In this document: piece by piece, positions 21,450-25,287 of the stretch | How the letters are laid out: each line of letters opens with the position of its first letter | Position numbering within the stretch: the stretch's first letter is position 1 | Assembly: GCF_000425545.1 (NCBI RefSeq) | Contig: NZ_AUDQ01000001.1 | Span: forward strand, 248,001 to 312,000 | Reading direction: 5' to 3' | Length of the DNA: 64,000 bases | From: Sporosarcina ureae DSM 2281 | Lineage (GTDB): Bacteria; Bacillota; Bacilli; Bacillales_A; Planococcaceae | Made by a program: the position numbers and the translations under genes | Notes under the pieces: model-generated | Seen by the model: only the letters and a program-made list of their open reading frames with translations | Database searches by the model: none | Told to the model about the DNA's origin: nothing

Positions 21450-23351
21450 ATGACGATTGGAAAATTGATATACTCTACGAATTCACGATCTTACAGCTTT
21501 TTACTGGAAGATGGTAAAGCGGCAAAGGAACAATACACTGCTAATTGTAAGAACAGCGACCTGAAGATAAATTCACTACCTTCTTCCAATGTAAAATTAA
21601 ATAGCCTGCTCTGCGCATTGCTGCTTAGCAGCGGGCGTATTATGTCTTCTGCAACTAACCACAAATATTTTCGATTCACTTTTCATACAAAACACAGTGA
21701 ATGGGCTCATTCCTGCCACCGACAGTTACAATCCTATGTTCCAGACTTTCTTATAGAGAAGGAACAAACTACGGATTCACGGAGTAAATTCGGCTTTACA
21801 GAGCGCGTGGTGATTGAATCTGCCCCTTGTGCTAATGCTGAAGCATTATACTGCGATTGGTATAGGAACGGCTCTAAGGGCATGCCTCTGCAGTTTGTTG
21901 AACAGCATATGAACACTCAGACACTCGCTTGGTGGTACCAGGAATGCGGTCACTTGAAAGTTAAAGAAAACGGCACGCTGGAGAAACTGATTCTCTCCAC
22001 CGAGCATTGGACCGAGGACGAGCTTCCGTTACTTCAATACGCACTAAATATCAATTTCAATTTCCTATTTGCAATAGATGGTCAACGAAGACTTATTTTG
22101 TATGACCAACTGCAAATCAAATACTTTATAGGTATGGTTGCACCTTGGATCCATCCTATGTTCTCCTATAAAATTAAGAATGTAGAAGTTCGAAAACCTG
22201 TTGCGAAGCGAACCACTATACGGCTTCCCAATCAGATATCTATTCCCTCTCCTACTGAAGAAATTAATCAAATGATTCAGCAATACGCTTCCTCTATAAA
22301 AGTAACAACAGAGAACTTTCAAAGATTCAACTACGCCAGGCAAGAGGACAATGAATCCAAACGCTATCAAGTGAGCCTTACTGAAGAAAATCGAGACTTT
22401 CTTTGTTCCGTCCAAGCATCAACAGGCTTAACTTTAGGTGAGATTGTACAAGAGTGTTTCCATCGGCAGAACTGCATTTCACCGCGACCACTGAATACAT
22501 TGAATGATCTTTCTACTACACAGCAAAACATTATGCTTGGTTCTATTATTGGAGATGGCATGCTTACGCACATACAAACAAAATTTAAAGGGATCAGAAG
22601 TAATTACAGTGAACACTTTTCTATCCAGCAGAAGGATTATCGAGCTTGGAAAGTCATGAAACTCGAGCCATACCTTTCTTTTACCCTAAAAGGCAATACC
22701 ATTAGTTCACGAGTTGACAATCTGTGGAGCGCGTTAGAAGCTGATTTTTATGGTGGTACTAAAAAAGGCAAATCCAGAGTTAAAATACTACCGAAAAATA
22801 GACTTTTCAATTTAAATGATTTGCACAGTATAGCAACTGTCTACATGGATGATGGGTCACTAATGCTTACAACCCGTGTGAATGACAATAATAAAAAAAT
22901 ATATATTACTCCTCACATAGCTCTGTATCTACAAAACTTCACATATGAAGAATTAAAATGCTTCATAGTACAAATCAAAAGTTTAACTCTAGCTGAATTT
23001 ACACTTACGAAACGACCTGATGGAAATGGTTATTATTTGCGCACAAACCGTACTGCAGATACATTATTGTTTCTTCAAGACATTCAACCTGTTACAATCA
23101 CATGCCCTGCAATGAGCTATAAAACTAACTGGCAATATCGCTTCTATATGGAAACTCAAAAATGGCTACACAAATATCCCGAATATGAACTTATTACTAG
23201 TTCTAGGGAGAGAATGCGACCTTATACACTAAAAGAAATAGCAACATTAATAGACATGAAACAAAAAGGCTCTACCATTCAACAAATTGCCGATCAGCTC
23301 GAACGTAGTTATTGGTCGATAGTTCACAAAACGAAAGAACTCCAAGATTAA
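21450..23351 (+). CDS. Free-standing LAGLIDADG homing endonuclease-like protein
   Basis: 633 residues with four LAGLIDADG-like helices: LLCALLLSSG near 53, WWYQECGHLK near 161, IMLGSIIGDGML near 361 and IATVYMDDGS near 461. The last two keep the acidic residues that bind metal; the first two do not. This looks like a duplicated two-motif endonuclease with a degenerate N-terminal half. The C-terminus (EIATLIDMKQKGSTIQQIAD) is a helix-turn-helix. TAGGAGGG precedes the ATG. It converges on the flagellin gene, 60 bp from its last exon, and is not inside the flagellin intron. Confidence 0.8.
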   Translation: MTIGKLIYSTNSRSYSFLLEDGKAAKEQYTANCKNSDLKINSLPSSNVKLNSLLCALLLSSGRIMSSATNHKYFRFTFHTKHSEWAHSCHRQLQSYVPDFLIEKEQTTDSRSKFGFTERVVIESAPCANAEALYCDWYRNGSKGMPLQFVEQHMNTQTLAWWYQECGHLKVKENGTLEKLILSTEHWTEDELPLLQYALNINFNFLFAIDGQRRLILYDQLQIKYFIGMVAPWIHPMFSYKIKNVEVRKPVAKRTTIRLPNQISIPSPTEEINQMIQQYASSIKVTTENFQRFNYARQEDNESKRYQVSLTEENRDFLCSVQASTGLTLGEIVQECFHRQNCISPRPLNTLNDLSTTQQNIMLGSIIGDGMLTHIQTKFKGIRSNYSEHFSIQQKDYRAWKVMKLEPYLSFTLKGNTISSRVDNLWSALEADFYGGTKKGKSRVKILPKNRLFNLNDLHSIATVYMDDGSLMLTTRVNDNNKKIYITPHIALYLQNFTYEELKCFIVQIKSLTLAEFTLTKRPDGNGYYLRTNRTADTLLFLQDIQPVTITCPAMSYKTNWQYRFYMETQKWLHKYPEYELITSSRERMRPYTLKEIATLIDMKQKGSTIQQIADQLERSYWSIVHKTKELQD

Positions 23352-23411: not shown

Positions 23412-25287
23412 TTAACGTAATAGTTGTAGAACGCCCTGAGGCTGTTGATTTGCTTGCGAGTAGTCCTATTGTCTCTAATAGGCTCAGATTATATCTTCAC
23501 CCACAGCATAACCTGTTTGGGGCTGGGCGCTTCGGACGCTGTTGCTTGTCCTACGGATTTCATCATCATAGCCGTGAAGCCTTAGACGGTATATCCTAGT
23601 CGTTGAACCTTCTCCAGGGTTTCCCCACAGGAGCTTGGCTGCTGATTATCCATTGTATCATCCTCATCATTTTCAAACCATCACGCTGACCGTTTCCAGT
23701 TACGTTGTGGTTGATGAAGCTTTAGGAAGTTCCAGCAATTCACCCAGTTGTGCTCTTACCCGTTACCAGATAAGACGCCCGTTCACAACATTACCGAAGA
23801 AGTTGTAATACTCCTTGCGGGGTTTGCTGTGCTTGAGCCAACATTGCTTGTGCTGCTTGAGAAAGAATTGAATTCTTTGTTTGTTCCATCATTTCTTTCG
23901 CCATATCTACGTCACGGATACGGGATTCCGCTGCAGTTAGGTTTTCAGAAGATGTACCAAGGTTATTGATTGTGTGATCTAAACGGTTTTGTATAGCACC
24001 TAGTTTAGAACGTTCAGCAGATACAGTTTCAATAGCTTCATTTATTTTCCCAATTGCATCACTTGCTGAACCTTGTGTTGAAACGTTAATACCAGCATTG
24101 GCTTTAGCTGCATTAGTTAATTTACCTGTTGAATCGAAAGTTGCTGCCGCTGCTTGATCACTGGAAACAGTTACACTCCCAGATAAACTAGTAGTAGTTC
24201 CTGCATTCTTTTCAATCTTCACTCCAGTATTATTGAAAGAAACCTCAGTAGCATTTAATGCAACTCCAGTAACAGTTTCATATGTTGTTGTATTTGTACT
24301 ATCTTTCAAAGTAAATGTAAGAGAAGCATCATTTCCTTTGTGTTCACCAGTAGATAGTCCTAATCCAGTAAGAACGCCAGCATTTGAAGCAGATTCAATG
24401 GTGATGTTTTGAGCAGCGCCTGTAGCTGAACTTTCAAGTTTTAATTGTCCAGAATCTGGTGAAGCTAATCCAGTAAATTGAGCATTAATATTAGTAACTA
24501 AATCACCAATTTTATCAGTTGCAGCTACTGTGATGGTTTTAGTTACGCCATTCACAGTTAGCACTAGGTCTCCAGCTGCTCCAACTTCATCAGTACCAGC
24601 ACCAGCCGCAAAGCCTGTAGCCCCAGTCACACTCGCTTTACCAGCGGAGACGTCGGCAGAAGCAATATTATATGTTCCATCAATAAGTGAAGCTCCAGCA
24701 GTAAGGGTTGCTCCACTAATTCCTGAAGCACCACTATCTAATGCAACTGATTTTTCATCGCGAGCAATCCCTAGAGATTTTGCATCCATAGCTTTGATAT
24801 CTACTGAAATATTTTGATTAGAGTTTGCTCCAACATGAAACTTAACAGCACCTTTTTTTCCATCTTGAATACCACCATTGAGAAGGGTCTGTGTATTAAA
24901 CTCTGTATTATTCGCTATTCGTGTAATTTCTTCAGCTAATTGATCAACTTCTTTTTGAATCTCACCACGGTCACTCGTTGTATTAGTATCGTTTGCTGAT
25001 TGAGTGGCTAGTTCACGCATACGTTGAAGAATATCGTGAGTTTCATTTAAAGCACCTTCAGCAGTAGCAATCATTGAAATACCATCTTGAGCATTTTTAG
25101 AAGCTTGGTCTAACCCGCGAATCTGTCCACGCATTTTTTCAGAAATTGCAAGACCCGCTGCATCGTCCCCAGCCTTGTTAATACGAAGACCTGAAGCCAA
25201 TTTCTCCATGGATTTTGATTGGTTAGTAGTTGCAGTGTTCAACTGACGATGTGTATTCAACGCCGCGATATTATGATTAATTCTCAT
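23412..25287 (-). CDS. hag: Flagellin, gene interrupted by a group I intron
   Basis: Exon 1 is 25287-23836 (484 codons); exon 2 is 23456-23412 (14 codons and TAA). Spliced product: 498 residues. The N-terminal D0/D1 domain has MRINHNIAALNTHRQLN and ASGLRINKAGDDAAGLAISE, the middle is a variable Ser/Thr/Ala-rich domain, and the C-terminus is RIRDVDMAKEMMEQTKN then NSILSQAAQAMLA joined to QANQQPQGVLQLLR. Without splicing, translation runs into the intron and ends QAQQTPQGVLQLLR at 23791, also 498 residues. Transcription starts from a SigD-type promoter and the leader carries CsrA sites. It is the filament subunit, exported by the flagellar type III system. Confidence 0.92.
23457..23835 (-). ncRNA. 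Group I self-splicing intron in the flagellin gene
   Basis: On the coding strand, exon 1 ends ...TTGGCT and the intron ends ...CTCG before CAAGCAAATC, which fits the group I rule (U before the 5' site, G as last intron base). Ligation restores the normal flagellin sequence. Core elements appear in order: P/P4 region AATTGCTGGAACTTCCTAAA, Q element AATCAGCAGCCAAGC, R element GTTCAACGACTA, S element AAGATATAATC. The length is 379 nt and it has no internal endonuclease frame. The first 45 nt are coding and end in TAA. In the S element A replaces the usual G, giving a C-A mismatch in P7. Confidence 0.88.

Follow-up and report, generated by a model that had tools for sequence, protein, structure and literature searches.

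A flagellin group I intron in Sporosarcina ureae begins with a second coding version of the flagellin C-terminus

The flagellin gene of Sporosarcina ureae DSM 2281 (25287..23412 on the minus strand of the window, i.e., the whole 64,000-nt stretch of DNA that was analyzed) is split by a group I intron whose first 45 nt encode the flagellin C-terminus a second time. It is very likely that this segment, the loop of the P1 hairpin, serves a dual purpose and acts as an alternative last exon with which ribosomes arriving before splicing finish a full-length flagellin. A sequence-only reading of the window had claimed that the intron start and the second exon both encode the flagellin C-terminus in 14 codons plus TAA and differ at about 14 of 45 positions, mostly in third codon positions. 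Both statements were confirmed: the intron start (C5) reads QAQQTPQGVLQLLR and the second exon (C3) reads QANQQPQGVLQLLR, and the 14 differences among 45 nt comprise nine at codon position 3, four at position 1, and one at position 2, with 2 of 14 residues differing. The features of the locus are as follows.

23836..25287, minus strand: flagellin exon 1, MRINHNIAAL ... SQAAQAMLA, with Flagellin_N and Flagellin_C matches
23835..23457, minus strand: group I intron of 379 nt, from C5 to the omega-G at 23457, based on RF00028, P1 covariation, the reading frame, and the G before C3
23465..23799, minus strand: ribozyme, extent of the Rfam match (RF00028)
23791..23835, minus strand: C5, the intron start re-encoding the flagellin C-terminus, QAQQTPQGVLQLLR plus TAA
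23412..23456, minus strand: C3, the second exon, QANQQPQGVLQLLR plus TAA
23835..23838, minus strand: 5' strand of P1, GCU^C, with splicing after the U at 23836, based on covariation
23777..23780, minus strand: 3' strand of P1 (internal guide), GGGC, from the RNAalifold consensus of 120 sequences
23784..23831, minus strand: predicted hairpin above P1, formed by C5 and the spacer behind the C5 stop, based on the predicted fold and a spacer swap test
21450..23351, plus strand: LAGLIDADG_2 endonuclease-like gene (633 aa; PF03161, 3.7e-24), convergent with and just downstream of the flagellin gene

The intron matched the Rfam group I model RF00028 over positions 1-253 of 253 (cmscan, 69.2 bits, cut-off 50). 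Plain ORF calling in genomes of this kind ends the gene at the stop codon of the unspliced message, and the frame called here, 25287..23791, accordingly consists of exon 1 and C5. The only other PF00700 (Flagellin_C) match in the genome is FlgL (TIGR02550, 247 bits, cut-off 127), so that the split gene is the sole flagellin gene found.

The base before C3 is a G in 135 of 136 distinct introns, the sole A occurring in L122, and a 3' end at this omega-G, combined with the reading frame, puts the 5' splice site after GCT. In the RNAalifold consensus, GCU^C is paired with GGGC, and the resulting P1 helix with a U.G at the 5' splice site meets the group I criterion. The pairing is GCU^C/GGGC in 131 introns, UCU^C/GGGA in four that form one clade and were counted as a single covariation event, and GCU^U/GGGC in one (L096). 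Taken together, P1 covariation, the omega-G, and the frame place the 5' splice site and define the intron as 23835..23457, and the alignments thus show putative splice sites at 5' GCU^CAA and 3' G^CAA. Two alternative splice sites, the start of the Rfam match and the second AAUGUU directly after the C5 stop, would place the intron after the coding region and were rejected: the stretch is unconserved in relatives, the frame and P1 covariation favor GCU^CAA, and selection acts on C3 as protein.

The deduced spliced product reads MLA|QANQQPQGVLQLLR. In 131 of 132 copies (exception, L036), the final 30 intron codons include an in-frame stop, and the conservation of C3 as protein despite this stop implies splicing. 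Intron-less alleles end with the 14 residues of C3 in 4/4, 12/15 rows (which include the 4/4 set and one duplicate locus), and 7/9, the remainder differing by 1-3 residues; by this comparison, splicing would restore the flagellin end of intron-less relatives. Splicing of the intron and the existence of both flagellin isoforms are inferred, as there are no RNA or protein data.

The arrangement is not a peculiarity of S. ureae. The sequence-only reading had suggested a search for coding 5' ends among related introns, and such ends proved to be the rule, with an open C5 (14 codons plus stop) in 132 of the 136 distinct introns extracted at this site, a set that takes in introns with TTGCTGGG in P4. 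These copies are related, many were retrieved by a query containing C5, and another query held the last 15 nt of C5; moreover, the extraction requires a recognizable exon end and guide, and highly divergent relatives would escape it. A pattern holding only the guide and P2, with C5 excluded, found 54 introns, 53 of them with an open C5, in hosts that include Planococcus, Oceanobacillus, Salimicrobium, Alkalicoccus, Mesobacillus, Cytobacillus, Fictibacillus, Lentibacillus, and Exiguobacterium. Another family, with 41 genomes from 9 genera, yielded 20 introns that were read at this site, all of which carry C5 and two of which had been seen before, along with nine intron-less copies, and no further copy of this intron was recognized in the families of G292 and G282 (4 and 1 genomes, respectively). 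Four anchored introns without a detectable C3 (L131, L132, L191, and L234) were left out of the 136; their C5 is open by eye. The intron measures 356-398 nt in 132 copies, and its unspliced reading would change 1-5 (mostly 2) of the last 14 flagellin residues. There are 47 distinct C5 proteins, in which residues 2-8 vary among species, whereas residue 1 (Q) and residues 9-13 (VLQLL) are identical in 131 of 131 copies, with many of their codons varying.

Both copies bear the mark of selection on protein. The tests took in 56 and 108 copies rather than all 136, and the figures rest on parsimony on a tree of the intron body, on which transfer can misplace changes. With 56 copies, 161 synonymous and 80 nonsynonymous changes were counted in C5 (omega 0.18), compared to 151 and 11.5 in C3 (omega 0.03) and an omega of 0.175 for the exon tail; in its two shifted frames, C5 gave omega values of 1.2 and 7.0. 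The run with 108 copies, for which a transition weight of 4 was set, yielded 297 synonymous and 159 nonsynonymous changes in C5 (omega 0.23, p 2e-54), 231 and 39 in C3 (omega 0.07), and an omega of 0.21 for the exon tail. The presence of an open C5 in nearly all introns and the constraint confined to its coding frame indicate that the arrangement is not due to chance. The last residues of C5 and C3 (mostly R, otherwise Q or G) match in 127 of 131 copies, an agreement that is inflated by relatedness, compared to a mean of 98 and a maximum of 108 in shuffles. As judged from these substitution patterns, the unspliced and the spliced readings have both been kept as protein across many lineages. 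The proposal that unspliced mRNA would give full-length flagellin with two substitutions is thereby supported.

In addition to its coding content, C5 is predicted to form an RNA hairpin above P1. Individual folds pair the start of C5 with its end and the spacer in 44 of 44 spaced representatives (4-13 outer pairs), and the corresponding 55 nt of the window are predicted to form 17 pairs with -19.0 kcal/mol. A single RNAalifold consensus for this hairpin was tried and given up, since it contained P1 and P2 only and the arms differ between species; the hairpin was judged instead from the individual folds and from a swap of spacers. With its own spacer, C5 formed a mean of 8.2 outer pairs at -15.3 kcal/mol, versus 5.9 pairs and -11.3 kcal/mol with those of other species, and 0 of 10000 permutations reached the own-spacer means. 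The own spacer did not always come first: ranked by outer pairs, with ties scored to its disadvantage, it averaged 15.75 among 44. C5 plus spacer was more stable than synonymous re-draws (mean z of -1.10). For the 45 nt alone, position-specific codon re-draws gave z values of -0.50 for C5 and -0.70 for C3, i.e., C5 performed no better, and it was set off from C3 only when the codons were pooled from both copies (-1.18 versus -0.29). In 132 of 132 copies, 7-16 nt separate the C5 stop from the guide behind it. According to the spacer swap on these modeled folds, part of the variation in C5 residues 2-8 follows the RNA hairpin.

The sequence-only reading had named a same-site intron without re-encoding as the case that would refute it. 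Such introns occur as exceptions, not as the rule, namely in 4 of 136 (L043, L096, L154, and L165). In L043, C5 carries a 1-nt deletion (frameshift) relative to its relatives, and L096 has two nonsense codons in C5 and lacks an intact upstream gene. In L122, which has an A in place of the omega-G, the C3 stop is lost; L096 and L122 both have the appearance of 3' ends that were separated from their flagellin genes, retain the intron, and are decaying. In L154 and L165, a short hairpin takes the place of C5, reading QLLVA* and QFEQVA*, respectively. The gene of L154/L195 looks intact without C5 (474 exon codons open), and L165 is probably another such case. Both nest within the C5-bearing clade, although support is no higher than 0.5-0.9 at several intervening nodes, and C5 was therefore most likely lost there. 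C5 is thus not indispensable, as exemplified by L154/L195, probably L165, and the frameshifted L043. In genome G181, two flagellin gene ends (L043 and L074) are separated by 15 kb; both contain the intron, and the frameshift in C5 is found in only one of them.

A sister group I intron (intron 1) is inserted at RDVD^MAKEMM, about 70 nt upstream of the intron described here, in 58 of the 133 copies whose flanks were sufficiently long. Its P1 pairing is GAU^U/AGUC in 52 of 53 distinct copies and GAU^C/AGUC in one. Without splicing, intron 1 would run into a stop after 5-6 codons (YALAA* and similar) with no re-encoding in the 53 distinct copies, e.g., in L034, L036, and L085. A short hairpin with an in-frame stop is also predicted at this place in the copies of intron 1 that were folded and in the two introns devoid of C5. 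Intron 1 would stop the unspliced reading 23 codons upstream in the same genes and counts against a need for C5, since an equivalent difficulty is tolerated there.

Our preferred explanation, the alternative last exon within the P1 loop, starts from the coupling of translation to transcription, which would let ribosomes reach the gene's end before transcription and folding of the 379-nt intron are complete. If C5 were absent, these early ribosomes would be expected to release a flagellin lacking its last residues, which is likely to be bad for filament assembly. With C5, they would complete the protein and halt 7-16 nt before the guide, leaving the ribozyme core unread, and after splicing the same mRNA would yield the standard flagellin tip. 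As C5 would complete flagellin on unspliced mRNA, the intron may be harmless even in a single, highly expressed gene. A further possibility is that the ratio of unspliced to spliced message shifts with temperature or growth, C5 providing the low-temperature isoform; this would extend the alternative last exon and not exclude it. The consistent contrast at residue 5 (M, T, L, S, or A in 112 of 131 C5, Q in 113 of 131 C3) speaks for such regulation, as does the temperature dependence of a flagellin intron ribozyme of thermophilic Firmicutes, for which only the mention in PMC4853749 (citing Hayakawa and Ishizuka 2012) is at hand. However, C5 residues 2-8 are variable among species and partly track the hairpin, so that the two tips may be functionally equivalent; a regulated switch appears rather unlikely. 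Equally doubtful is the most far-reaching version, in which the first hairpin takes part in splicing and at the same time forms a regulated alternative last exon, i.e., a cotranscriptional two-tip switch that was spread by the neighboring endonuclease and selected across Bacillales and Exiguobacterium.

Explanations that dispense with a function of the unspliced reading or reverse the roles of the two copies fit less well. If the 5' end were merely a P1 hairpin for splicing and its coding appearance a relic or coincidence, the stability of C5 plus spacer relative to synonymous re-draws, the better pairing of own spacers, and the short hairpin retained by introns without C5 would all be accounted for; yet third-position changes dominate, the shifted frames are unconstrained, the last residue tracks that of C3, a hairpin by itself needs no VLQLL, and folding of the 45 nt alone fails to separate C5 from C3 in position-specific re-draws. 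A purely structural role is contradicted as the full account, for which its chances are very slim, and true as half of the account. Only marginally more credible is an exon replacement as in fungal mitochondria, with C5 as the true last exon, C3 as a displaced remnant, and the intron as a passenger. Its layout is like that reported, as far as the accessible part of the source goes, for six introns of Tremella fuciformis mitochondria that start with an analogue of the host gene (PMC7315562), but here C3, with an omega of 0.03-0.07, is more conserved than C5, forms the end of most intron-less alleles, and is hardly readable without splicing. Least plausible of all, to the point of being negligible, is that recombination explains the resemblance by copying one version onto the other. 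Direct copies about 330 nt apart would be able to recombine, but C5 and C3 differ at a median of 14 of 45 nt, and the fraction of identical residues that share the same codon is equal within genes (0.416) and between genes (0.415), which contradicts conversion between them.

Group I introns have previously been reported in the flagellin genes of Geobacillus stearothermophilus and thermophilic Bacillus (PMC3984707 and PMC4853749, citing Hayakawa and Ishizuka 2009, 2012). As far as can be gathered from the titles and from these citing papers, they are self-splicing with a temperature dependence and belong to subgroup IA2 (PMC4853749); like the present intron, they are group I introns in a flagellin gene of Bacillales. 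In the accessible part of the Tremella fuciformis report (PMC7315562), the 5' end is an analogue of the following exon, as here, with the length set by the insertion site; however, two of those introns measure 2.1-2.2 kb, and they are interpreted as carrying pieces of foreign genes. The 356-398 nt found here fall well short of the roughly 2 kb of these two fungal introns, and the flagellin intron differs further in the position of the copy within the P1 hairpin and in the selection on both copies across many genera. The group II intron C.te.I1 of Clostridium tetani, as far as PMC3919590 was available, produces several C-termini of a surface protein by means of four alternative acceptors, its unspliced mRNA being coding and the commonest form, whereas the flagellin intron has one acceptor and a near-identical C-terminus. 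In another intron system compared, a stop close to the 5' end presumably bars ribosomes from the ribozyme; the flagellin intron shares this feature, except that its stop follows the completed host protein. A literature search that covered mostly listings and abstracts and left most subscription journals outside turned up no description of a bacterial group I intron re-encoding the end of its host protein; what is known are flagellin group I introns, and the re-encoding is apparently new.

In introns of bacterial protein genes, translation can outrun splicing, and the re-encoded protein end within the intron appears to be a widespread answer to this problem. It amounts to a dual code in an RNA hairpin beside a splice site that is readable from alignments, and two flagellin isoforms would be expected from it in dozens of species. 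For the flagellin of this genome, the expected tryptic end peptide is NSILSQAAQAMLA followed by QAQQTPQGVLQLLR or QANQQPQGVLQLLR.

The neighboring 633-aa LAGLIDADG protein may drive homing from outside the intron, an inference from sequence alone. Its relatives were found within 1.5 kb downstream of 46 of the 96 intron-bearing copies with enough flank, convergent in 46 of 46 cases, and of 2 of 13 intron-less copies, with 50 intron-bearing copies having none by this search; these counts exclude 17 intron copies and one intron-less copy with short flanks and one duplicate locus. The association is weak (Fisher p 0.036) and uncorrected for relatedness. An ORF-less intron with an adjoining endonuclease-like gene, as seen at the flagellin locus, is also the configuration of collaborative homing, as far as the part of PMC3984707 at hand describes it. 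The LAGLIDADG protein has two LAGLIDADG_2 stretches, and its N- and C-terminal halves match separate places in several relatives, which is fusion-like. At locus L088, a flagellin gene without the intron is accompanied by a same-strand frame downstream of 2150 that is LAGLIDADG-like by eye. A second group I match in the S. ureae genome (L002, G000:C13:36574-36850) remained, with 49.6 bits, under the cut-off of 50; it lies between the two parts of a B12-dependent ribonucleotide reductase gene (NF005991 on both sides), and the long frame in between is endonuclease-like by eye.
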